Origin: Clostridia bacterium
Lineage (GTDB): Bacteria > Bacillota > Clostridia > Christensenellales > Borkfalkiaceae
Reading direction: 5' to 3'
Assembly (NCBI GenBank): GCA_028720205.1
Contig: JAQYLE010000004.1
Coordinates: forward strand, 1-64,000
DNA: 64,000 bases
This document shows positions 2-60,569 of the stretch, piece by piece. How positions within the stretch are numbered: the first letter of the stretch is position 1; each line of letters starts with the position of its first letter. A program made the translations under genes and the position numbers. Under the pieces are notes generated by a model that worked only from the letters and a program-made list of their open reading frames with translations, made no database searches and was not told the origin of the DNA.

Positions 2-442
2 ATGGGCAATATGACGCTTGCCCCCATAGATCTGAAACTGAAAACCAAAGAAGAGGCGGAACAAAAAGCAACGGAACTTTTAAAACGCATCGGTCTGGAA
101 GATAAAAAAGACTCTTACCCCTCCACCTTATCGGGCGGACAGAAACAGCGCATCGCCATCGTACGAGCGTTGATGATGGATCCGGACGTGCTATTATTTG
201 ACGAACCCACTTCCGCGCTGGACCCCGAAATGGTGGGCGAAGTGCTCGCTTTAATGAAAGAACTTGCCGCCGAGGGCATGACCATGGTGGTGGTGACGCA
301 CGAAATGGGCTTTGCCCGCGAAGTGGCTTCGCGCGTGCTGTTTATGGACGAAGGCGTAATTAAAGAAGAAAACGAACCTAAGGAATTTTTCACCCACCCC
401 AAAGACGAGCGGTTGAAAGAATTTTTATCGAAAGTACTTTAA
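2..442 (+). CDS. Polar amino acid ABC transporter ATP-binding protein (GlnQ-like), 5'-truncated by window edge
   Basis: [15 protein letters not shown] signature, Walker [16 protein letters not shown]-loop [10 protein letters not shown]; lacks Walker A because the window starts inside the gene. Confidence 0.9.
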
Positions 443-44730: not shown

Positions 44731-47700
44731 TTATGCGGCGCCGCCTTCGCCCTCCGTTTCGGCGGAGGATCCGGCGGAAGCATTGTAGTTCCATACGATC
44801 TTCGCGTCCATCTGATAGAACGGACCGCTGTAAGATTTATCCAGGAACGAGCCGAAACCGCTGTCGCTGTCGGTTGCCCACAGGTTATACACGTCCGCCG
44901 CGCCTGCTTCTACGTAAACGGTCTGTTCCGCCGTCCAGCCTTCGAAGGCAAACGCTACCGTTTCCAGCGAAGCGGGCAGAACGATCGACTTCAACGCCGT
45001 GCAGTAGTCAAACGCGCCCGAAGAAATCTTCGTCACCGTAGAGGGAATATTGACAGAGGCAAGGTTAACGCACCCGGAGAACCCGTCTATCGTCAACAAT
45101 CCTTCGGGCAAGATTACGGAAGTAAGCGCAACGCAGCCGGAGAACGCGCTGCTACCGATAGAGGTCAAGCCCTCGTTAAAGGTAACCTTGGCAAGGTTAG
45201 CGCAGCCGGAGAACGCGCTTCTACCGATAGCGGATATGCCTGCGGGAACGGTAATTTCCGTAAACGCCGCGCCGCGGAAGATACCCGAAGGCAATTCGGT
45301 AACGCTTGCGGGGATATTCACCGAAGCAAGTTTAACGCAACCGTCGAACATATAAGACGGCAATATTTCGGTATCGGGAAGAACCACGCTTTCCAGCGCC
45401 GTACAGCCGCTGAACATATTCTGCCCGAGGCTGGCGTTGGTGCCCAGAACAGCCGCGGTATTGCTTGTAAACTCAACTCTTGTAAGGTTCACGCAGTTGT
45501 AGAACACGCCGTCTTTAGCCGTTGCACTGCCGCCGAAGAACGTTTCCGAACCTTCGATTACAACGCTTTGCAGCGCGCTGCCTGCAAAGGCGGCGTCGCC
45601 GACGGTACGCGTTGATATCGAACTGCCGGAGGCATTTAACACAAGTCCGTTCAACGTAGCGGGAAGAATCACTTTTTCAAGTTTCGTATTCTGGAACGCA
45701 TATTTACCGATGAATTTCAGCGTTGCGGGGAATACGGAAGTTTTCAAAGCGGTTTCGCCTTCGGCAGCCGCTTCTTCCTCCGCGCCCGTATAAGTAATTT
45801 TCTTTAACCCGGTATTTTCAAACGCATTGGCGCCGATGCTTTCCGTCTGAGAAGAAAGCACTACTTCTTCCAGCGTGGTAAGTCCCTGGAACAACTTATC
45901 GGCAACCGACGTCATCGCTTCGGGCAGAACGATTTTCTTAACGTTGACGCAGCCGTCCAACGCGCCCGCGGCAATGGTATCGCCTTCCTGCAATTTCAGC
46001 GTATAATTTTCCATTTCAACGCCTGCGGGAACGCATACGATTGCGCCGTCCGCAGTATACAGCACGCCGTTCAGCGCTTTGTAATAACTGTTTGCGGAAT
46101 TCACGGTGATCTTAGCCAACTTCGCGCAACTGCCGAACGCCGCCGCGCCGATAGAACTTACGTTTTTAGAAATGCTTACGCTTTCCAGATTGGCGCAACC
46201 GTTAAACGCCGAAGCGCTAACGGTAAGTTTGCCGGTGGCGCTTGCCAACGTAGGCAATACCACCGAAGTCAGTCCGTCGCACCCCGCAAACGCTTCGGTG
46301 CCGATCGTCTTTAACGCCGTAAAGCCCTCCAGAGTAAAGTCAACTTCCGTTTTTTCCGTTCCGTTCACAACCGTCGCTTTCGCCAACGATACGCAATTAC
46401 GGAACGCATAGTCGTTAATTGCCGTAATATTAGGCAACGCCGTAGCATTCACCGTAATATTCGAAAGGCTTGTGCATCCGTCGAACATACCTTTGGCAAT
46501 AGAAGTTGCGGTAGCCTTCGATAAATCGATTGACTGTAAAGAGGTACAACCTGCAAAAGTGTATCTTCCAAAAGATTTTATCGCACCGTTGAATGTTACC
46601 GACTGCAATCTCACGCAATCGCGGAATATTTGTTCTCCGCTCAACGAAATTACTTTTGCAGGGAGCACAACGCTCGTCAAGCCTGCGCAACCCATAAACG
46701 CACCTTCGTTAATGGTGGCAAGCAAGGTCAGATTTTCCAGACTGAATGCCTCTGCGCCTTCTTCCGCATCCTCAGGCAACGCACTTACCAAAGAGGTGCA
46801 ATCACGGAACGCGTATTTATTTATTGTTGTTATCTTTGCGGCGTTCAGTTTTACGGTTGCCAGGTTAGCGCAGCCGTCGAAGAAATATTGCGGAACACCG
46901 GTAACGGTTGCTTTCGATAAATCAATCGAAGTAAGAGCGGAACATCCCGCGAACATATAGTTGCCGAGCGAAGTCATCGCCCCGTTGATTGTTACGCTTG
47001 TCAGCGCCGTACAATTCTGGAACACGTTTGTAGAGGCAGTTTTAATATTGGCGGGCAGATTAACCGAAGTAAGCGACGTACACCCCTTAAACATCGAGGA
47101 CGCCAAAGCCGTCAGCGTAGAAGACGTGGAGAAGATGACGCCGGTAATCGCCGTGCAGTTTTCGAAGTTGCTTTTATCGAACTTAGTGATCTGCGAAAGA
47201 TCGACTACCGGCGTTTCGCTTTCCGTCGCCCCCGCCGCAAGTACGCTGTTCAACGAGGTGCAATTCCGGAACAGATAAGAAGGCAACGACGTAATATTCG
47301 CGTTCAGCGTAACTTTTTGCAAAGCCGTGCAGTTTTCAAACGCATTCGAACCGAGTTGCTTATCCGTAACGTTCAAATCGACGTTTTCCAGCGACGTACA
47401 ATTCTGGAACGAATAGTTCTGTATCCATTGCACCGTGGAAGGAATATTGATATTTTTTAACGAAGTGCAGTAAGCGAACGAATAGCCGCCGCTGGAAGTA
47501 AGCGACTGCTTGCCCGACCGCTCGTAATACCCGATATTGGTAAGCCCTTCGGGAAGCGTCACCGTTTCCAAAGCCTTGCAGTTGTAGAACGCATATTTTT
47601 TAATCATCGTTACGTTCTTCGGAACGGCGATGGTTTTAAGCGATTTGCAGTTGTAGAAGGTGTATTCGTCGATTACCGTAACGCCGACGGGAATGGTTAT

Positions 47701-50700
47701 ATCCGTAAGCGAAACGCAGTTTCTGAACGCCGAAGCGCCGATTTTGGCAAGCGTGCTGTTGGTTTCAAACGTAACTTTCTTTAAGCCGAGGCAATCGTAA
47801 AACGCCTTTTCGCCGATTGTCATTACCGACTTGGGAATATAGATTTCCTTCAGCGTGGCTTTGCCCGCAAACGTGCTGGGGTTGATTGTGGTAACGCCGT
47901 CCTTCACGTTAAACGTGCCTTCCACGTCGCCGAGTATATATACCAACTCGGTTTGCTTTACGTTGTACAGCACCGCGCCGTCGGCTACGAAATAACCGCC
48001 TTCCGGAACGGTGATCTTTTTAATCGATCCGCAAAGGTCGAACACTTTGCTGATATCTTTCACCGTTTCGGAAAGGTTAATGGTAACAAGTTTCTTGCAG
48101 CCTTTAAACATTTCCTTACCCAACCCCAAATCACCCGCTACCAGCGGTTCCTTGGTGGAAGGGAAGGTGAACGAGGTAAGTCCCGTATTCAGGAAAGCCT
48201 GGTCGCCGATCGACCGCAACGAACTCTTGCCCGCTACCGCGCCCGTTTCTTCGTCGGTTTCCGCATACGTTGCAAACGTTACCGAAGTAAGGGCGGCGCA
48301 TCCTTCAAACGCGTTCTTCCCGATAGTCGTCAACGTGGCGGGAAGGCTGACGGAAGTCAGCGCTTTGCAGTTATAAAACGCGTTGCTTTCAATCGTTTGT
48401 AATTTGCTGTTTTCGCCGAAGTTTACCAAAGCAAGTTTTGAACAAGTAGTAAACGCGCGGCTCTTCAGCGTGGTCAGCGCGCTGTTGTTTCCGAAACTTA
48501 CTTCGGTAAGTTCGGGGGAATAAAACGCCTGTTCGTATACCGTTTCCAAAAGGCTGTTATCGGCAAACGTTATCTTGCTTACCGACGTATCGCCGAATAC
48601 GCCCCGCGTAGCCGACTTCTTCGTCGTCTGCTTGCCGTATTCGGTTACGCTGGCGGGAATATTTATCGCCGTTCCTGCGGGGAACTTCGCCCCTCTGAAC
48701 GCCTCCATACCTATCGTCGTAAGTCTTCCGGGCAGCGAAATCGCCGTCAGACCGCTATCGGTAAACGCGCCGTCGCCGATCTCGGTAAGGTTACAATCTT
48801 CGGCAAACGTCACCGTTTCCAGCCCCGAGCATTTGTAGAACGCAAACGTGCCGATTTTGGCAAGCCGTTTGGGGAACTGAACGGAGGTAAGCGAAACGCA
48901 ACTCTTCAATATTTTTGTGTTCGAAGCTGAACCGGTACCTTGATAATAATAGGAAAACACGCCTGTATATACGTCGGAACCGGAAGAACCGCTGGAAGAA
49001 CTACTGTACTCGCCGTCTTCCAGCGTAAGCGGGGTATCGTCGTTGCCCCCCTCAAACGTCAGATTGCTGAGCGATACGCACCCTTCGAACGCGCCCGCTT
49101 CTATCGAAGTAACGGTGTTGGGTACGACGATGCCGGTTAAGTCGCTGCAATCTTTAAACAGCCCTTTTACGATTTTGGTTAACCCTTGGGGCAATTCAAA
49201 CGTGGTCAGCGCGGAGGCTTTATACAGCGCTTTTTCGCCGATTTTAAAATCGCCCGCAAGCGCTCCGTCGAACTTCACTGTGGTTACGCCCGTATTCAGC
49301 GCGAACGCCTCATCGTATATCAACGTTAAGGTGTTAGGCAACAAAACTTCGCCCGCTTTTTTGAACGGACAGAAATACAGCGTCACCAGATTGCCGCTTT
49401 CGTCTTTGCCGTACAGCATACCGTCTTTCGAGGCGTAATGCTTGTTTCCGCTCGCCACCTCTACTTCTTCCAGGTTCTTGGAATAATAATTCGGGGTAGA
49501 GAATATGAAAGTGCTCTCCGATTTGAACAGATCCATCGAATCGAATTTATACGTGGTTACGCCGCTCTCGTCCGTGGTTTCCGTCCATTTACCCAGGCGC
49601 TCCACCGTGGAGGGGAAGGTAACTTTGGTTAAGTTTTCGCAATCGGAAAACGCGTAATTCCCCACAGACACAACGCCTTCGGGCAACGCGATCGTCTGCA
49701 ACTTATCCAAGCCGGCAAACGCCTTTTCGCCTATCGTTTTCAGCGCGCTGTTCGCGGCAAAATCAAACGTTACGATAGAATCGCAATTGTAGAACGCCAT
49801 ATCCCCCAGCGCGGTAACGCGTGCGGGCAGCGTAAACGATACGAACGAATCGCAGTCTTCAAACGCGCGCTCGCCTATCGTAAGCGGCTTTGCCGTTTCG
49901 CCTTCGGCAGGCTCGCCCCATACGATTTCCGCAAGGTTCGTACACCCTTTAAACGCCGCGTCCCCTATGGAGGTTACGTTATTGCCTATCGTTATCTTTG
50001 TTAAGCCTTTTCTTGCAACGAACACGTTCGCGCCGATTTTCGTAACCGTCGAAGGCACAACGTATTCGCCCTGTTTCCCTACGGGATAGTACAGTATCTC
50101 CGTCTTGCTCTTGGTTTCGTCTTCCGCGTTTTTATCGTAAATTACGCTCTCTTCTTCAAGATAATACTTGTTATCTTTATCCACGTTCACCGTGGCAAGT
50201 TTCGAAGAAGTACCGCCGAACGCGCCCGAAATATTGATGACGGACACGTCTTTGCCGATGATCAGCGTGGTTACCGTACTGTTTCCGGAGCCGGTAATTT
50301 CGCCCGTCGTAAAATTACGCGTAAACGAAGCGAACGCGCCGTCCGCAAACGATACCTCGCCGCTGCTCTTCACCGTTACCGTACTTAACGACGTATTTGA
50401 CGACGAGTTGTCGCCGAAAGCGTATTTGCCGATGGTGCGCACGTTCTCGGTTAAGGTAAGTTCCGTAATGTTGCAGCCGTAAAACGCCCGTTCCTTAATT
50501 TCCAGAGCGGCGTCCGCTTCTGTGCCCTCGAACGTAAGCGTTGCAAGATTCTCGCAATTTTCAAACGCCGATTCGCCGATTTCAACAATTCTGGCAGGGA
50601 CAATGAAAGTCGTGATTTTCTTATTTCCGTAAAACGCCTTGTCGGCAATCTTCGTAACGGAAGAAGGCAACGCAACTTCCGTTTCCGTACGGCCCTGCGC

Positions 50701-53700
50701 CCAATACAGCAACTCTGTTCCGTCGGCGTTTAACAGCAAGCCGTTCTCGGAAGAGGAATACAATCTCCCCGTAGAAACCGTGCCCGTAACGTAAATTTCC
50801 GACAGACGGTTGCAGCCGTAGAACGCCGAACGTTCGTACGCCCAGGTATAGTCATTCTTCTTTTCGCCGTTGAACAGCGTCATGTTCGTCAGACGGGCGG
50901 GCAACGTGATCTTCTTTATATTATAACTTGAAGCAAACGCTTTATCCGCGATGATAAGTTTTTCTTCAACGCCGTCTTCCGCCTGCAAAAATTCGATTTC
51001 CGTAAGCGAGGTGCACGATTTAAACGCGTTCATCGCTACGTAATTAACGCTTGCGGGTATTTTGATTACTTCTAATTTGCATCCGGTAAATACGTTCGCC
51101 GCAATCGTTTCCACGCCCGAGGGAATCGTGTATTCGCCCGTTCTCGCCAAGGGGAAGAACTGCAACGTTTTGCCCGCCGAATCGTTCTTCACAATAATTC
51201 CGTCCGTTTCGCCGTTGTCTTTTACGGGCGAATAGTATACGGGTTCAATCGTGCCTTCCACTTTGTAAATGTTTAAATTAAGAAGCCCCGTGCAACCTTC
51301 GAAAGCCGTGTTTTCGATATTGGCTATGCTTTCGGGAATGTTGATCGTCGTCAGGTTTTTCGCGTCTTTGAATGCGTACGCTTCCACCGTAGAAACGCGT
51401 TTGTTATTGTATTCGGTGGGAACGGTTACTTCCGTAAGATATTTAACGCCGTCCGCCTGCGTTACGCTATAACTGCCGTCGACAAGGCTTGCAAATTTAA
51501 ACACGTCCACCCATCTGGCTTCAAGCGTCTGGCCGGTTAAATATCTCCACACGTCTTTGCTTTCGCCGCGATGATCGGTAATCTGCGTGGTGCCGGCATA
51601 CCAGCCCATAAAGGCTTTATTCTTGTTATTGGAAGAGGGAACGGGTAATTCGAAGGCTTCTTTATACGACACCGTTGCGCCTGCGGACAAATCGTCGTCG
51701 CTGTAAGCGCCTTTGTTCAACACAACGTTGTATTGCTTCGGCGTCCATTTCGCGTACAGCGTTAAATCTTCCGCCGCGCCCAGCGTGGGTAACGTACCCG
51801 AAACTTCTTCGTATTTCGTTCCCGCGCCGTTCTGCCCGTTGTACCAGCCGCCAAAATCATATCCTTCAAAAATGCTTTCGGGCAAAGCGATGGAATCCCC
51901 CACCGCAACGTATGCGTCGTCGATTTTGCGTTCGTTTTCGCCTACGTCGTAACTTACGGTATACGCCGTAACTTTCTTTTCTATCCAGGCGGAAGCATTT
52001 CCTTTTTCGTCGTACGAACGCACGCGCAACGTGTTTTCGCCCGCTTTGGTCAGCGTAACGGCGGTGCCGACGTCCTTAACCTCCGTAATCGCGCCGTCGT
52101 TTACCTGCACTTCGTATTTTGCCACGCCGAAACCGGGATTCCACGATAAAAACCCTTTTTCGTAAGAAAGTTCGCCCGCGATTTTACCCGATTGCACCGT
52201 CAGCGTTTTGGTAAACAGAGAATTGCCTGCCGCCGCCGTATCTTTCGCGCTTACGGAAATGCCGTATTCCGTCTGCCCTTCCACGTAATCTTCCGCTTGC
52301 AACGTGTAACTGTTGGTAGTTACGTCGATTTCTTTTTCGCCGATCTTCACAACATACCCGTTCGCGCCGTCCACCGCCGTCCAGTTCAGCGTGTAACCGC
52401 TTACGGAGAGGTTCGCGGGCGTAGGCAGCGTGGCTTTCGTCCACTCTGTTTCGGCCGCGGGAGAATTGTTGTAGCCCTTTGCCACGGCAATAACTTTAAC
52501 GCTATAAGCGCCCTTTTCGTAACCGCGCAGATCGAACGACGTTTTGTCGCCTACGTTAATCGCGTCTCCGTCGTTTACCTGAACCAGATAATATTTAGCG
52601 TTTTCAACGGCGTCCCAACTCGCTTGCTGGGTAGAATCTTCCACCGCCAGATTCGTCGCCGCGTTCAGCGTTCTTTCAAACGACCAGGTTTCCGAAACGG
52701 AGGTAAGCATACCGTCGGCAACCGCTTTAACGGTGAAACGGATTCCTCCCGCTTGCATATCGCAATCGGAAAAATCGTAAAACGTAACGGGTTTGTTATC
52801 TTCGCCCACGCCCAGATCGATATCTTCGTGAGAATGTTCCGCCGTTCCGCATTCGATGGTAAGCAGATATTTTTCGGCGTTTTCCACGGCGTTGAACGTA
52901 AGAATCGAGGGAGAGTTTACGGCAAACGCGCTTACGCGCGCAAGCGCCTTGTTTTTATAATACGCCGTGGTTTCCGCGCTGCCGCACTTCACCGTTACCG
53001 TATATTCGCCCGCAGGTTGCGCCGAAAAATCAAACTCGCCGAATTCCGTTGAAGAAACTTTGCGGTTTTCTATGCCGCCGACGACTTTCCCTTCGGCGTC
53101 TTTAACGGTGAGTTCGTACGTTTTGTTTACGCCCAGAGAACTCCACGAGATTTTATTCGATTTTACGGATACCGCGATTTTTTCAGCGCTCTTCCATACG
53201 GGATACAATACGATGTTTTCCGCAATGGGCTCTTCCGCCTCGTATTGCGCGGTTAATTTATTTTTATCGTTATACGCACTTCGCCACCAGCCGAGGAATT
53301 CCTCGCCGTTTTCGCTTTCGGGCACAGGCAGATTGTACAACGTCTGATTGGTTGTAACGACAGGATACGTTCCTTCCTGCCCCCCCCCTGTGTAGCCGTC
53401 GAACGTTACGGAAAATTCCGTTTTGCCCAACAATTCGGCAAAACGCGCGTACAGCGTAATATTTTTGGTAACAGGCTGGTCGAAGGAATACTTTTCGTTA
53501 AACGCCGCGTCTTTATACCACCCCACGAAAACGTATTCTTTCCCCTGTTCTTCTTTTACGGGGTTGGCGGGCTTTGCAAGTTTCTTGCCGTTCAGAACTT
53601 TTTCGTCCTCTTTTGCCTCCCCGCCGTTCATTTCGAATTTTACCGTATATTCTACGTTTTTATAGAATTTATACGTTTTGTTCTGATATGTAAGGGTAAT

Positions 53701-54018
53701 CGTCGCGTCGTTGTACTTCGCTTCCAGCACCGTTCCGTCGGCGGCAACCAATCTCAGCGTAGTACCGTTGAACAGATACGTACCTTCGATCTTCGCGGAA
53801 CCGATTTTAACAGAGAACGCCGAATCGGTAAGATCAAACGTGTTTCTCGTTTCGCCTTCGTCCGCATAGTACGAGCCGATTTCTTCAAACGTCTTGTCGT
53901 ATCCGCTCGGCACTTCCGGCTCATTCGTTTTCTCTTTGCAGGCTACGCCGCCGGCAGTTGCGCCGATAACGAGCGAAAAGCACAACAATTTGAGAAATAA
54001 ATGCCTTTTGTCCTTCAT
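44731..54018 (-). CDS. Giant (about 3095 aa) BspA-like LRR_5 surface lipoprotein with N-terminal InlB-type repeats and FN3-like modules
   Basis: Lipobox AGGVAC; VKFEMNGGEAKEDEKVLNGK…FVGWYKDAAF; long array of about 23-aa LRR_5 units; RBS GGAGGTAACTAT-ATG at 54018. Confidence 0.9.
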   Translation of the reverse strand: MKDKRHLFLKLLCFSLVIGATAGGVACKEKTNEPEVPSGYDKTFEEIGSYYADEGETRNTFDLTDSAFSVKIGSAKIEGTYLFNGTTLRLVAADGTVLEAKYNDATITLTYQNKTYKFYKNVEYTVKFEMNGGEAKEDEKVLNGKKLAKPANPVKEEQGKEYVFVGWYKDAAFNEKYSFDQPVTKNITLYARFAELLGKTEFSVTFDGYTGGGQEGTYPVVTTNQTLYNLPVPESENGEEFLGWWRSAYNDKNKLTAQYEAEEPIAENIVLYPVWKSAEKIAVSVKSNKISWSSLGVNKTYELTVKDAEGKVVGGIENRKVSSTEFGEFDFSAQPAGEYTVTVKCGSAETTAYYKNKALARVSAFAVNSPSILTFNAVENAEKYLLTIECGTAEHSHEDIDLGVGEDNKPVTFYDFSDCDMQAGGIRFTVKAVADGMLTSVSETWSFERTLNAATNLAVEDSTQQASWDAVENAKYYLVQVNDGDAINVGDKTSFDLRGYEKGAYSVKVIAVAKGYNNSPAAETEWTKATLPTPANLSVSGYTLNWTAVDGANGYVVKIGEKEIDVTTNSYTLQAEDYVEGQTEYGISVSAKDTAAAGNSLFTKTLTVQSGKIAGELSYEKGFLSWNPGFGVAKYEVQVNDGAITEVKDVGTAVTLTKAGENTLRVRSYDEKGNASAWIEKKVTAYTVSYDVGENERKIDDAYVAVGDSIALPESIFEGYDFGGWYNGQNGAGTKYEEVSGTLPTLGAAEDLTLYAKWTPKQYNVVLNKGAYSDDDLSAGATVSYKEAFELPVPSSNNKNKAFMGWYAGTTQITDHRGESKDVWRYLTGQTLEARWVDVFKFASLVDGSYSVTQADGVKYLTEVTVPTEYNNKRVSTVEAYAFKDAKNLTTINIPESIANIENTAFEGCTGLLNLNIYKVEGTIEPVYYSPVKDNGETDGIIVKNDSAGKTLQFFPLARTGEYTIPSGVETIAANVFTGCKLEVIKIPASVNYVAMNAFKSCTSLTEIEFLQAEDGVEEKLIIADKAFASSYNIKKITLPARLTNMTLFNGEKKNDYTWAYERSAFYGCNRLSEIYVTGTVSTGRLYSSSENGLLLNADGTELLYWAQGRTETEVALPSSVTKIADKAFYGNKKITTFIVPARIVEIGESAFENCENLATLTFEGTEADAALEIKERAFYGCNITELTLTENVRTIGKYAFGDNSSSNTSLSTVTVKSSGEVSFADGAFASFTRNFTTGEITGSGNSTVTTLIIGKDVSVINISGAFGGTSSKLATVNVDKDNKYYLEEESVIYDKNAEDETKSKTEILYYPVGKQGEYVVPSTVTKIGANVFVARKGLTKITIGNNVTSIGDAAFKGCTNLAEIVWGEPAEGETAKPLTIGERAFEDCDSFVSFTLPARVTALGDMAFYNCDSIVTFDFAANSALKTIGEKAFAGLDKLQTIALPEGVVSVGNYAFSDCENLTKVTFPSTVERLGKWTETTDESGVTTYKFDSMDLFKSESTFIFSTPNYYSKNLEEVEVASGNKHYASKDGMLYGKDESGNLVTLYFCPFKKAGEVLLPNTLTLIYDEAFALNTGVTTVKFDGALAGDFKIGEKALYKASALTTFELPQGLTKIVKGLFKDCSDLTGIVVPNTVTSIEAGAFEGCVSLSNLTFEGGNDDTPLTLEDGEYSSSSSGSSGSDVYTGVFSYYYQGTGSASNTKILKSCVSLTSVQFPKRLAKIGTFAFYKCSGLETVTFAEDCNLTEIGDGAFTDSGLTAISLPGRLTTIGMEAFRGAKFPAGTAINIPASVTEYGKQTTKKSATRGVFGDTSVSKITFADNSLLETVYEQAFYSPELTEVSFGNNSALTTLKSRAFTTCSKLALVNFGENSKLQTIESNAFYNCKALTSVSLPATLTTIGKNAFEGCAALTSVTFATYAETDEETGAVAGKSSLRSIGDQAFLNTGLTSFTFPSTKEPLVAGDLGLGKEMFKGCKKLVTINLSETVKDISKVFDLCGSIKKITVPEGGYFVADGAVLYNVKQTELVYILGDVEGTFNVKDGVTTINPSTFAGKATLKEIYIPKSVMTIGEKAFYDCLGLKKVTFETNSTLAKIGASAFRNCVSLTDITIPVGVTVIDEYTFYNCKSLKTIAVPKNVTMIKKYAFYNCKALETVTLPEGLTNIGYYERSGKQSLTSSGGYSFAYCTSLKNINIPSTVQWIQNYSFQNCTSLENVDLNVTDKQLGSNAFENCTALQKVTLNANITSLPSYLFRNCTSLNSVLAAGATESETPVVDLSQITKFDKSNFENCTAITGVIFSTSSTLTALASSMFKGCTSLTSVNLPANIKTASTNVFQNCTALTSVTINGAMTSLGNYMFAGCSALTSIDLSKATVTGVPQYFFDGCANLATVKLNAAKITTINKYAFRDCTSLVSALPEDAEEGAEAFSLENLTLLATINEGAFMGCAGLTSVVLPAKVISLSGEQIFRDCVRLQSVTFNGAIKSFGRYTFAGCTSLQSIDLSKATATSIAKGMFDGCTSLSNITVNATALPNITAINDYAFRNCVSLAKATVVNGTEKTEVDFTLEGFTALKTIGTEAFAGCDGLTSVVLPTLASATGKLTVSASAFNGCANLESVSISKNVSSIGAAAFGSCAKLAKITVNSANSYYKALNGVLYTADGAIVCVPAGVEMENYTLKLQEGDTIAAGALDGCVNVKKIVLPEAMTSVADKLFQGLTTLEEVVLSSQTESIGANAFENTGLKKITYTGAEEEAAAEGETALKTSVFPATLKFIGKYAFQNTKLEKVILPATLNGLVLNASGSSISTRTVGDAAFAGSALQSVVIEGSETFFGGSATAKDGVFYNCVNLTRVEFTSNTAAVLGTNASLGQNMFSGCTALESVVLPDTEILPSYMFDGCVKLASVNIPASVTELPSGIFRGAAFTEITVPAGISAIGRSAFSGCANLAKVTFNEGLTSIGSSAFSGCVALTSVILPEGLLTIDGFSGCVNLASVNIPSTVTKISSGAFDYCTALKSIVLPASLETVAFAFEGWTAEQTVYVEAGAADVYNLWATDSDSGFGSFLDKSYSGPFYQMDAKIVWNYNASAGSSAETEGEGGAA
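45132..45231 (-). repeat. Near-identical LRR-coding DNA repeats with 69-nt period
   Basis: cgcagccggagaacgcgct at 45132 and again at 45201, each followed by (g/t)ctaccgatag. Confidence 0.8.
46500..47010 (-). repeat. Higher-order super-repeat (period 396 nt, 132 aa) in LRR array
   Basis: ttcgataaatc at 46517 and 46913; parallel protein blocks SIDLSKATATS…FDGC…INDYAFRNC and SIDLSKATVTG…FDGC…INKYAFRDC. Confidence 0.65.
53380..53388 (-). repeat. G9 homopolymer (C9 on + strand) inside giant surface-protein ORF
   Basis: tgcccccccccctg-type run at 53380-53388, encoding Gly-Gly-Gly in DGYTGGGQEG. Confidence 0.85.
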
Positions 54019-54160
54019 ATAGTTACCTCCGTCAATTACTTTCGATTTTTGGCGTTTCACGGCGCACGTATAATCGTTTTTATAAATGGATATGATTCAA
54101 TAAAACGATATGCCTCGCCTTTAAAACGAAAAAATATAGAATCTTGGTATTTTACATTTT

Positions 54161-56967: not shown

Positions 56968-57594
56968 TTATACGGGAAAAAAGCCGTCGGAAATTTCTTT
57001 CACCGTAATTTCCGCTTTGCCGCACAGCAAGTCGGAAAGAGCGCGGCGCAACTCTTCCGCCTGCGAAGTTTTTACGCGCAATAAAAATTCCGCTTTTTCC
57101 GCATACGTAACCGTGGGAATCAGTCCCTGCTTTCCCAGCAGTTTTTTAACGCTTTCCGCCGCGGCGTATTCCGTAAAAAAACGCCACGTTTCACACGGCA
57201 CGATCTCGCATAAACGCGCCTTTTCCAAGTGCTCGTTCGCCGCCGAAAAATATGCGCGCGTCAATCCCCCCGCGCCCAGTTTCACTCCGCCGAAATAGCG
57301 CACTACGGCAAGCGCGCTGAGCACCAGGCCGCGGTTTTTCAGATTTTCCAGAATCGGCATGCCCGCCGTACCCTGCGGCTCTCCGTTATCGGAAAAGCGT
57401 TGAATGTTACCCGTCTTATCGCAGATATACGCATAGCAGACGTGCGTAGCGAACGGGTGCTCTTTTTGCAGCGCCGCCAAAAACGCGCGCGCCGCTTCTT
57501 CGCTCTCCGCGCGCGAAGAATAAGCGATAAAGCGCGATTTTTCTATGATTTTTTCCGTCGGCTCGCTCGTGTCGATCGTAAGCGCGCGGCGCAT
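56968..57594 (-). CDS. yigZ: YigZ/IMPACT family protein
   Basis: EKSRFIAYSSRAESEEAARAFLAALQKEHPFATHVCYAY…RFSDNGEPQGTAGMPIL…VRYFGGVKLGAGGLTRAY. Confidence 0.94.
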   Translation of the reverse strand: MRRALTIDTSEPTEKIIEKSRFIAYSSRAESEEAARAFLAALQKEHPFATHVCYAYICDKTGNIQRFSDNGEPQGTAGMPILENLKNRGLVLSALAVVRYFGGVKLGAGGLTRAYFSAANEHLEKARLCEIVPCETWRFFTEYAAAESVKKLLGKQGLIPTVTYAEKAEFLLRVKTSQAEELRRALSDLLCGKAEITVKEISDGFFPV

Positions 57595-57595
57595 G

Positions 57596-58792
57596 TTATA
57601 TCACCAGCACTTTTACGCGTACTTTTTTGCCTTTTTGCAAAATAAATTCGCGAGCCGGCACGGGCATGTTCACGTCCGTCACCTTTTCGTCGTTCACGCA
57701 AACGCCGCCCTGTTCGATAAGTCTGCGCGCCTCGCCTTTCGATTTGCATACGCCGCAAAGCGCCATCGCGTCCACCACCGTCTGCGCGCCTTCCGCCGTT
57801 TTTTCGGGAAGTTCGCCCGCGCCGCCGGCAAAAGCCGCTTTCGCCTGCTCCCGCGCCGTTTCCGCCTTTTCTTCGCCGTGCACTTCTTTAGTGAGTTCGT
57901 ATGCCAGCACTTCCTTGGCGTAATTGATGCGCTCGTCGCGGTAGCGGCAGAGTTCTTCGATTTGTTCCACGGGCAGATAGGTGAGCAGTTTCATGCACTT
58001 TTCCACGTCCGCGTCGTCGATATTGCGCCAATATTGATAGAATTCGTACGGAGAAGTTTTATTTTCGTCCAGCCAAACCGCGCCTTTCGCCGTTTTGCCC
58101 ATCTTGCGCCCGTCGGAAGTGGTAAGAAGCGTGAACGTCATGGCGTACGCGGGTTTTCTTTCTTTGATACGAATCAGGTTGGCGCCCGCCAGAATGTTGC
58201 TCCACTGATCGTCGCCGCCGAGTTCCAGCGCGCAGCCGAATTTACGGTTGAGCACCAGAAAATCGTACGCCTGCATTAACATATAATTGAATTCCAGAAA
58301 GGAAAGTCCGCGTTCGAGGCGCTGTTTGAAGCATTCCGCCGTAAGCATTTTGTTTACCGAAAAATGCGCGCCGATTTCGCGCAGGAAATCAACGTAATTC
58401 AAATTCAACAGCCAGTCGGCGTTGTTCACCACGATCGCGCCGTTTTCGCCTTCGAAATCGATGAACTTCGCCATCTGCTTTTTAAAACATTCCACGTTGT
58501 GCTCCACCGTTTCGCGCGTCATCATCTGCCGCATATCCGTTCTGCCCGAAGGATCGCCGATCATGCCCGTGCCGCCGCCGATTAAAATAATGGGTTTGTG
58601 CCCCGCCTGCTGCATATGATGCATAGCAATCAGCGTTAAAAAGTGCCCCACGTGCAACGAGTCCGCCGTAGGATCGAACCCGATATAAAAAGGTACGCTT
58701 TCTTTGCCGAGTTTTTCGTACAGTTCTTCTTCGTATACCGTCTGTTTGATAAAGCCCCGCTTACGGAGCGTATCCATTACGTTTTCCGCCAT
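57596..58792 (-). CDS. tyrS: Tyrosyl-tRNA synthetase
   Basis: [19 protein letters not shown] (HIGH-like), [13 protein letters not shown] (KMSKS-like), C-terminal S4 domain. Confidence 0.96.
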
Positions 58793-58875
58793 TGTATGTC
58801 GCTCTCCTTACAAAATGATTCTCGTCTGATTTATCCGGCGCGCCTGTTCGATTCAACGCTCCGTCGCGGATAGTT

Positions 58876-58907
58876 AAAAAAAACGGTCTGCGCGATTGCA
58901 AACCGTT
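58876..58907 (-). terminator. Intrinsic terminator in tyrS leader (putative attenuator)
   Basis: AACGGTTTGC / GCAGACCGTT 10-bp stem (one G-U), 6-nt loop, U8 tract; 84 nt upstream of tyrS start. Confidence 0.8.
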
Positions 58908-58947
58908 TGCCGTATTTTTTCCGCTTCGCGAAACGACTTCCGATTTA

Positions 58948-59040
58948 TTACGCGCACGCTATACGCCTGCCGCAAAAATATCGGTAGGCGTAAATATACT
59001 TCCCACCGTTTTCGCATAAATACGCTTTCGTTGCTTTCAT
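58948..59040 (-). CDS. Putative Tyr-rich leader peptide MKATKAYLCENGGKYIYAYRYFCGRRIACA
   Basis: 30-codon ORF starting at predicted TSS; Tyr codons 7, 15, 17, 19, 21; TAATAA stop; terminator downstream, then tyrS. Confidence 0.7.
   Translation of the reverse strand: MKATKAYLCENGGKYIYAYRYFCGRRIACA
58962..58992 (-). promoter_or_regulatory. Hairpin overlapping the Tyr codons (candidate 1:2 structure)
   Basis: UACGCCUACCG / CGGCAGGCGUA, 7 bp + A-C mismatch + 3 bp, loop AUAUUUUUG. Confidence 0.65.
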
Positions 59041-59046
59041 GATTTC

Positions 59047-59075
59047 AGTTTACTCCGTTTTTAAAATTCTGTCAA
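59047..59075 (-). promoter_or_regulatory. Sigma-A-type promoter of the tyrS leader
   Basis: TTGACA - 17 bp - TAAACT on minus strand. Confidence 0.75.
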
Positions 59076-59180
59076 GCAAAAACAAGCCGCCGCGCCTTTT
59101 TTTCGGTTTTTGCGCCGTTTCTTTGCGGTTTTTTACCGCTTGCAGCCTCTTTTGAACGCGCATTTACCGTTAATTTACCA

Positions 59181-59438
59181 TTAAACGATTTTATACTCCG
59201 GCCGGCGCGCGTTTTCCCCCGCGTCTGAAACGACAGAATCGCCCGCGCCGCCGTTTATCGCAAACAGATTGCACGAAAACAACCGCGCCCACGCCTCCTC
59301 CTCGCTGTTTTCTTTCAAATGACGCATGATTTTATAATTGAGCGCGCATTCCCAGAGTTCGGCGCCCGACGCGCTTTTTTTATTTACGCTATACTTTTCA
59401 CAAGACCGTTCCGCCCCGAATTGCCGATAATATAACAT
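59181..59438 (-). CDS. Small hypothetical protein (85 aa), divergent from WYL regulator
   Basis: ATG at 59438 preceded by CGGAGGAAAAACAGT; the longer ORF start in the track runs into the divergent gene and is disfavoured. Confidence 0.55.
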   Translation of the reverse strand: MLYYRQFGAERSCEKYSVNKKSASGAELWECALNYKIMRHLKENSEEEAWARLFSCNLFAINGGAGDSVVSDAGENARRPEYKIV

Positions 59439-59498
59439 ACTGTTTTTCCTCCGTAAACCTATTTTTATTCGTTCCGGAAATATTTTATCACAATAAAC

Positions 59499-59527
59499 TT
59501 GACAACTAACGTCAGGTTTTATAAAAT
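59499..59527 (+). promoter_or_regulatory. Promoter of WYL regulator with overlapping inverted repeat TGACAACTAACGTCA (59500-59514)
   Basis: TTGACA - 17 bp - TAAAAT; inverted repeat TGAC-N7-GTCA overlaps the -35. Confidence 0.65.
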
Positions 59528-59582
59528 AATTATGAAAAAATAAAAAATTTTTACGAAAAGACCTGACCCGGGAGAAAAAACG

Positions 59583-60569
59583 ATGAAATTCGATATTCTG
59601 TTGGATATGCTCTTCGATCTGCTTAACCGCCGTAAAACCACGGCGCAGTATTTCGCGCAGAAATATTCCGTTTCCGCGCGCACGGTGTACCGCTACGTAG
59701 ATGCGCTTTCCTCTTGCGTGCCCGTAGAAATACGGCAAGGGCGAGGCGGAGGCATCTATATTTCCGACGCCTATAAACTGCCCGTCGGAATTCTGACGCG
59801 CGAAGAGTACGCCGCCGCGGACGAGGCGCTGGAAGCCATGTATTCGCAACTGCCCGAAGAACGATTTTTAGCGGCGCGGAAAAAACTCGCCGCGCAAAAC
59901 AAAGAAGAAAAAAAACAGTCGTTTTTTCCGGGCGACTCCAACTTCGTTATGATAGACAGCGGCTCGTGGGGAGATTCCAAACCGCTTTCGGAAAAAATCC
60001 GCCTGTTCGAAAACGCCGCCAAATCGCTGTCGGTGGTGGAAATCGATTACTTTTCGCGCGAGGGCGAACGTACGGCGCGCAAGATAGAGCCTCATATTTT
60101 AATTTACAAACAGAACGTATGGTACGTATACGCCTTCTGTCGGACGAAAAAAGCGTTTCGCCTGTTCCGTATCGGGCGGGTGTATTCCGCGTTTTTAACG
60201 GGCGAAACGTTCGTGCGGCGCGAGGTGAAACGCGAAGATATTCCTCTGCATTATTGGAATACGCCCGATAGCGTAGAAGTAAAACTGGAAGTACGCGAAG
60301 AAGCGTTTGCCGACGTGCAGGACTGGCTGGGCTGCGAAAGTCTGCGCCCCCTGCCTTCCGCCGAAGAAACGGCGGCGCAAAGCGCCGCAGTCGAAACAGA
60401 CGATTCTTACGCGCGGCGGTTTATCGCGCAGGTAACCTTGCCGTTCGACGACGCGCTGGTGAAAAAAATCGTCGGACTGGGCGCGGGCGTCAAAGTACTT
60501 GCGCCCGAAGCGCTGAAAGAAAAAACGGCGGCACTTGCCGCCGCCGTCGCCAAAGTATACGAAAAATAA
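59583..60569 (+). CDS. YafY-type HTH / WYL-domain transcriptional regulator
   Basis: N-terminal HTH (TTAQYFAQKYSVSARTVYRYVDAL), WYL core (IEPHILIYKQNVWYVYAFCRTKKAFRLFRIGRV). Confidence 0.92.
   Translation: MKFDILLDMLFDLLNRRKTTAQYFAQKYSVSARTVYRYVDALSSCVPVEIRQGRGGGIYISDAYKLPVGILTREEYAAADEALEAMYSQLPEERFLAARKKLAAQNKEEKKQSFFPGDSNFVMIDSGSWGDSKPLSEKIRLFENAAKSLSVVEIDYFSREGERTARKIEPHILIYKQNVWYVYAFCRTKKAFRLFRIGRVYSAFLTGETFVRREVKREDIPLHYWNTPDSVEVKLEVREEAFADVQDWLGCESLRPLPSAEETAAQSAAVETDDSYARRFIAQVTLPFDDALVKKIVGLGAGVKVLAPEALKEKTAALAAAVAKVYEK

Follow-up and report, generated by a model that had tools for sequence, protein, structure and literature searches.

A predicted leaderless, tyrosine-codon-rich leader as a candidate ribosome-mediated attenuator of tyrS in Clostridia

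Introduction

In the pheST attenuator of E. coli, a short ORF rich in cognate codons, which encodes the PheM leader peptide, precedes mutually exclusive antiterminator and terminator structures, and the gene downstream encodes an aaRS. The pheST attenuator is cited in PMC1262725. In Bacillota, T-boxes are the usual control of aaRS genes, and a comparative survey of 2005 reported no Firmicutes aaRS gene under classical attenuation, the tyrosine genes using T-boxes (PMC1262725). His leaders were reported afterwards for hisS*/hisZ in bacilli (PMC2965389) and for the his operons of Eubacteriales and Erysipelotrichales (PMC9413887). For aromatic amino acids, the uORFC-13-1 motif ahead of the aroF gene of Acholeplasma is a proposed leader (PMC8632094), and a Phe-Tyr-Phe leader is known at the aroR-aroF attenuator of C. 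glutamicum (Neshat 2014, reviewed in PMC11802643). Leaderless leader peptides have been reported for leuS, trpS, thrS, trpE, and leuA of Streptomyces lividans (PMC8079986). Leaderless genes are generally scarce in Firmicutes, being reported mainly from Lactobacillales and Mycoplasma (PMC3160421).

The tyrS leader described here lies in a window of 64,000 nucleotides, which is the whole stretch of DNA analysed. It shares with E. coli pheST and other proteobacterial attenuators the leader ORF with cognate codons and the mutually exclusive antiterminator and terminator, and with pheST also the position ahead of an aaRS gene. However, the codons are Tyr instead of Phe, the gene is tyrS instead of pheST, there is no Shine-Dalgarno sequence, the host belongs to the Bacillota, and no Rfam leader family matches. 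The likeness to pheST proposed in the original prediction holds for the attenuation layout and has to be corrected at the leader start: from the promoter-AUG spacing, the window leader peptide is predicted to be leaderless, a trait described for Actinobacteria (PMC8079986) and not for E. coli. The S. lividans leaders likewise place a leaderless leader ORF ahead of aaRS or biosynthesis genes, but they come from another phylum, none of the eight cases concerns Tyr or tyrS, and several have no U-tract terminator, whereas strong ones are present in all 26 tyrS leaders considered here (PMC8079986). The Bacillota His leaders resemble the tyrS leader in using classical leader-peptide attenuation in place of T-boxes, but carry His codons, and the accessible text of PMC2965389 and PMC9413887 describes no leaderless arrangement. 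The C. glutamicum leader has aromatic codons at a DAHP synthase gene, like the aroF leaders of the present order, but it controls aroF and not tyrS, and its reported signal is Phe, not Tyr (PMC11802643). The uORFC-13-1 motif also sets a short aromatic-codon uORF ahead of a terminator, and differs in its ribosome binding site, its Phe codons, and its gene, aroF (PMC8632094).

Organization of the tyrS leader

The promoter-leader-terminator unit of tyrS spans positions 59075-58873 of the window on the minus strand (Table 1). The original prediction, made from the letters, had named a TTGACA-17-TAAACT promoter, five Tyr codons in a 30-codon ORF closed by TAA TAA, a strong hairpin holding the Tyr codons, and a U-tract terminator between the ORF and tyrS, and all of these were recovered. 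The leader peptide is MKATKAYLCENGGKYIYAYRYFCGRRIACA (30 aa). The Tyr-codon hairpin (UACGCCUACCGAUAUUUUUGCGGCAGGCGUA) is real as a local fold and is absent from the MFE structure of the whole leader. The terminator has an 11-bp stem of -14.9 kcal/mol, and 88 nt separate it from the tyrS start. As a whole, the window leader was more stable than 200 of 200 dinucleotide shuffles (z = -3.07). Downstream, the 208-aa ORF begins one base past the tyrS stop and is probably co-transcribed with tyrS.

Table 1. Features of the tyrS unit and their positions in the window
Feature	Position	Strand	Basis
Promoter TTGACA-17-TAAACT (-35 box TTGACA, 59075-59070; 17-nt spacer; -10 box TAAACT, 59052-59047)	59047..59075	(-)	Sequence and promoter scan
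Leader-peptide ORF, 30 codons (ATG, 59040-59038), Tyr at codons 7, 15, 17, 19, 21	58951..59040	(-)	Sequence, homologues
Tandem stops TAA TAA, within antiterminator strand 2	58945..58950	(-)	Sequence
Antiterminator strand 2, UGCGCG (58956-58951) and UAAAUCG (58947-58941)	58941..58956	(-)	Folds; position conserved in homologues
Antiterminator strand 3, CGGUUUG (58905-58899) and CGCGCA (58894-58889)	58889..58905	(-)	Folds
Tyr-codon hairpin, candidate pause/protector, -14.0 kcal/mol	58962..58992	(-)	Fold; analogous hairpins in relatives
Intrinsic terminator, stem-loop 58908-58881 and U tract	58873..58908	(-)	Terminator scan
tyrS, tyrosyl-tRNA synthetase, 398 aa, regulated gene	57596..58792	(-)	ORF, homology searches
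208-aa ORF, YigZ/IMPACT-like by inspection	56968..57594	(-)	Assignment by eye

Occurrence of the leader in related genomes

We searched tyrS in 201 genomes of the same family, which comprises uncultured gut Clostridia, and examined 90 upstream regions from this search. A Tyr-rich ORF followed by a terminator was found at the same place in 26 of the 90 regions, from the genera g1, g4, g7, g9, g11, and g12. With locus L210 of a seventh genus, g2, which was found separately from the 26, the leader occurs in seven of 18 genera; further leader-bearing loci are L106, L115, L116, and L124. The Tyr-leader pattern gave 26 matches in the 201 genomes and the reversed control pattern gave none. The homologous leaders keep what the original prediction said to look for: runs of Tyr codons, the hairpin that includes them, and a terminator. 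Terminators were found in 26/26 leaders (23 by program and 3 by eye). Named near relatives are MAGs of uncultured Clostridia, some of them labelled Christensenellaceae.

Most of the other tyrS regions have a short 5' UTR of 25-90 nt without a Tyr-rich ORF. As judged by eye, L012 and L055 retain the terminator-like hairpin alone, and L009 has a 12-codon ORF with one Tyr. Since the leader is missing from many close relatives, it is not essential. In a TyrS tree of 30 species, leader presence was clustered; five changes were needed, and at least three of them were forced by well-supported branches. Separately, two tyrS genes of genus g10 (L038 and L039) have alike, very GC-rich 5' UTRs of 136-141 nt, which lack a Tyr ORF and match no Rfam family.

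Tyr codons of the leader ORF

A run of Tyr codons in a short ORF ahead of the gene was present in the 26 leaders. At least three Tyr residues were found in 25 of the 26 leader ORFs, as compared with 7% of 1033 other short ORFs from the same upstream regions, and L065 is a leader with just two. Tyr accounted for 121 of 601 leader residues (20%) and for 3.3% of those in the 1033 other ORFs. Counted by frame over the 26 leaders, UAY triplets numbered 121/7/21 and are thus confined to the ORF frame; UAU and UAC (65/56) were freely interchanged. Judging from these sequence statistics, we conclude that the leader ORF is probably a genuine regulatory reading frame; the UAY counts by frame, and the pN/pS given below, are indirect signs that it may be translated.

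Nascent-peptide arrest, in which the peptide K.F(L).ENG.YYIYAY.Y would stall the ribosome in response to free tyrosine or another ligand (cf. TnaC for Trp), would agree with the conservation of non-Tyr residues in g1 and g4, whose consensus is MK.F(L).ENG.YYIYAY.Y. It would also agree with a pN/pS of 0.46 pooled over close leader pairs, a ratio which comes from small numbers and from sequences that RNA pairing constrains as well. However, the peptides of g7, g9, g11, and g12 differ, and those outside g1 and g4 diverge to forms such as MKNSLAIAIYGYAYYVFA, MKGQVTSRFYVGAVVFYAYYRSRTV, and MNIYAIKNGYVYYCAYYRYGMYVL, yet the Tyr run is kept; moreover, the pairing of strand 1 described below accounts for part of the IYAY conservation. 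The persistence of the Tyr run while the other residues diverge points to the Tyr codons, rather than a peptide motif, as the sensed feature, and we regard peptide arrest as improbable.

Promoter spacing and predicted leaderless start

The ATG of the window leader lies 6 nt past the -10 box, so that a Shine-Dalgarno sequence has no room, a point which the original prediction had not remarked on. In all 26 family leaders the AUG follows the -10 box at a distance of 6, 7, or 9 nt, and the tyrS-leader mRNA is therefore predicted to be leaderless. Counting from the -10 box, 23 of the 26 have a purine as base 7, and the remaining three have the A of the AUG as base 8; a start site at base 7 or 8 leaves 0-3 nt ahead of the AUG. 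From this spacing, the leader ORF probably begins at base one of its mRNA. A GGAG lies 5' of the -10 box and, given transcription from this promoter, cannot serve for ribosome binding. A transcribed 5' UTR of the proteobacterial type, with a Shine-Dalgarno sequence before the leader AUG, was found in none of the 26 leaders. The same promoter was found upstream of tyrS in relatives both with and without the Tyr leader. Leaderless initiation is plausible in this lineage, where the promoter spacing recurs at other candidate leaderless genes, some of them full-length.

Alternative RNA pairings and their gating

Each leader was divided into four regions: region 1 holds the Tyr codons, region 2 runs from the last Tyr codon to the terminator, and regions 3 and 4 are the terminator arms. 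Covariation was evaluated on the 26 leaders by a cognate-versus-swapped duplex permutation test with reversed-sequence controls. The mean 2:3 duplex energy was -15.1 for cognate and -12.6 for swapped strands (z -5.3, p 5e-5), and the cognate pairings 1:2, the protector, and 3:4 gave z values of -5.2 (p<=5e-5) and -10.2; the reversed-sequence controls gave -1.1, 0.2, and 0.25 for 2:3, 1:2, and 3:4, respectively. After the leaders were thinned to 19, p was 0.0005 for 2:3 and 5e-5 for 1:2. When strand 3 was lengthened into the 3' arm the test weakened (z -4.5) and its reversed control was not clean (z -2.4), so we relied on the narrower definition of strand 3. The covariation that the original prediction had asked for in homologues was thus significant for 1:2 and 2:3 by permutation.

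In the window, the antiterminator consists of UGCGCG/CGCGCA together with UAAAUCG/CGGUUUG, where CGGUUUG is the terminator 5' arm and CGCGCA covers the terminator loop and the start of the 3' arm. This layout agrees by eye with those of L003 and L004. Two short candidates had been offered beforehand: UGCGCG/CGCGCA was borne out by the homologues, along with the UAAAUCG/CGGUUUG pairing that had not been listed, and CGUAU/AUACG fell outside the conserved pairing. For the window 2:3 duplex alone, 128 of 1000 shuffles were as stable, and support for the antiterminator lies at the family level. A pairing between the conserved AAAACGG of the leader and CCGUUUU in the terminator 3' arm was rejected by eye, there being no covariation when the stem changes (L028, L029).

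Taken over the family, antiterminator and terminator are mutually exclusive, and the choice between them depends on where the ribosome is placed. With the ribosome modelled by masking, the mean probability of upstream pairing of strand 3 was 0.78 with the ribosome on a Tyr codon, 0.44 with the ribosome at the stop, and 0.66 with no ribosome. In the window, stalls at codons 17-21 gave 0.55-0.62, a stall at codon 15 gave little antiterminator (0.25), and a ribosome at the stop gave 0.23; the MFE structure contained the antiterminator when the stall was at codon 21 or 22 and lost it at the stop. Since the untranslated window RNA gives a strand 3 pairing of 0.62, default termination is not predicted for this leader by folding. 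In some g9 leaders strand 2 begins only after the stop codon, and placing a ribosome on that codon leaves strand 3 pairing unchanged; in these leaders without occlusion at the stop, the 1:2 pairing may be in play instead. Folded to equilibrium at full length, most leaders favour the terminator even with a stalled ribosome, and the decision must therefore be kinetic and co-transcriptional, as in classical attenuators.

The stall logic would react to any slowed translation, and the gap between terminator and tyrS has space for other elements, so a leader that controls translation or stability, or an attenuator that senses general translation speed and not Tyr, has to be weighed. The specific enrichment of Tyr, the identity of the gene as tyrS, and the conservation of U-tract terminators in 26/26 leaders stand against both, and we consider them unlikely. 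An ordinary short ORF next to the terminator of an upstream transcript, without regulation, would suit the commonness of the single elements and the absence of the leader from many relatives, but is very hard to reconcile with a Tyr run conserved in frame, occurrence in seven of 18 genera, covariation, and a fixed promoter-AUG-terminator order.

T-box searches

A Tyr T-box riboswitch, in which uncharged tRNA-Tyr would be bound by a specifier loop and an antiterminator, is the least credible explanation, because, although T-boxes are usual for such genes in this phylum (PMC1262725) and the tyrS of L089 (genus g8, same family) has one (RF00230, 95 bits, locus 135-362, minus strand), the T-box model found none in the window at E<=10 or in 20 homologous leaders at E<=0.05, and the same search found the T-boxes of pheS. 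The T-box reading is thereby refuted, save for a T-box that the covariance model would not recognise. That no T-box is visible at this tyrS leader, as first stated from the sequence, is therefore also the result of the Rfam search, which gave no match of any kind in window positions 57300-60500 at E<=10. Across the whole window, neither the amino-acid leader families nor any other Rfam 15 family matched at gathering score. The pheS T-boxes, which serve as positive control, were found in five leader-bearing genomes, L277 and L278 above the gathering score and L269, L272, and L276 at E values of 5e-11 to 6e-14. The pheS region of the genome from which the window comes (L274) gave no T-box match. 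A Phe-rich leader was sought in the pheS regions and none was found. One and the same family contains three forms of tyrS control, with a T-box, a leader peptide, or a plain promoter.

DAHP synthase leaders and other ORFs in leaderless position

In 248 genomes of the order, the Tyr pattern picked out DAHP synthase genes (aroF) of several other families that are preceded by Tyr/Phe-rich leaders in leaderless arrangement. Thirty aroF loci were examined; where the aroF start could be located, an aromatic-rich short ORF was present in most cases, and terminators were frequent. Eight aroF leaders are in leaderless position (L239, L244, L246, L248, L251, L252, L253, and L257); other Tyr/Phe-rich short ORFs are at L241, L247, L249, L256, L259, L260, L261, L265, and L267, and some of the non-leaderless leaders apparently have a ribosome binding site.

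DAHP synthase had no match in the genome of the window (G000) or in five of the other six family members listed in the search, so that the organisms without it may rely on an external supply of aromatic amino acids. They may be auxotrophs for these compounds, which could leave tyrS as the gene still under Tyr control. Tentatively, at somewhat less than even odds, this order of Bacillota would have evolved, apart from Actinobacteria, an aromatic attenuation regulon (tyrS here, aroF elsewhere) with the leaderless AUG as an integral part and T-boxes replaced. In such a regulon, a leaderless 5' AUG would keep the first ribosome close behind RNA polymerase, T-boxes would have been replaced at tyrS and aroF while pheS stays T-box-controlled in the same cells, and the tyrS leader would belong to a family mostly without DAHP synthase and the aroF leader to others.

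Two extensions were rejected. The matches of the Tyr pattern away from tyrS in the family (L185, L186, L193, and L203-L206), considered for a wider Tyr regulon, look like chance or coding starts. For a general system of leaderless attenuators that would serve other amino acids as well, a Trp pattern gave 15 matches in the 201 family genomes, which to judge by their matched letters look like ordinary gene starts or chance and not like Trp leader peptides.

Three further ORFs in leaderless position were observed. In the genome of the window, L095 (C28:12520) has a 43-codon ORF followed by a terminator-like hairpin and purE, with no Rfam match at gathering score, and L097 (C35:14395) has a short ORF starting MYYYA approximately 310 nt upstream of rpoB. 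In a relative, L219 has a short ORF starting MYHYA.

Discussion

The Tyr-rich ORF, the terminator, the mutually exclusive pairings with their conservation, and the absence of a T-box are observed at these loci. They argue for a ribosome-mediated transcription attenuator that would couple tyrS to the supply of charged tRNA-Tyr, a reading to which we assign a probability of about 0.83. The candidate Tyr attenuator of the original prediction is thus supported by homologue conservation, covariation, and the lack of a T-box.

In the attenuator that we propose, transcription would begin at the leader AUG or within 3 bases of it and, as the promoter spacing suggests, the ribosome would load straight on the mRNA 5' end without a Shine-Dalgarno sequence. 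With ample Tyr-tRNA, the ribosome would reach the stops inside strand 2 and cover this strand; strand 3 would then pair with strand 4, the terminator would form, and transcription would end. With scarce Tyr-tRNA, the ribosome would be expected to stall on the Tyr run at codons 15-21, and the free strand 2 (UGCGCG..UAAAUCG) would capture CGGUUUG..CGCGCA, including the terminator 5' arm, so that RNA polymerase would read into tyrS. In many homologues, strand 2 has a further possible partner in the Tyr codons of strand 1, a pairing that would lead to default termination when the leader is untranslated. Leaderless initiation, stalling, and the dependence on Tyr are thus predicted steps of this scheme.

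On these predictions, the logic would be classical, and the new elements would be the Tyr specificity on tyrS, the leaderless leaders in Bacillota, and the replacement of the T-box. A literature search, which mostly covered papers outside subscription journals, turned up neither a Tyr-codon leader at tyrS nor a leaderless leader peptide from Bacillota. With 26 natural candidate attenuators, close relatives without the leader, and one relative with a T-box, it becomes possible to follow directly how one gene exchanges one sensing mechanism for another. The tyrS leaders also make it testable whether leaderless initiation supports transcription-translation coupling tight enough for attenuation beyond Actinobacteria.

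Other features of the window were also observed. An 85-aa small ORF (59181-59439, minus strand) lies between the tyrS leader and a divergent ORF (59583-60569) that by eye encodes a WYL-type regulator, and small ORFs like it seem to be placed alike in several relatives, e.g., L006, L010, L018, and L020. A giant ORF of 3109 aa (44731-54060, minus strand), with leucine-rich (BspA-like) repeats by eye, probably encodes a surface protein.
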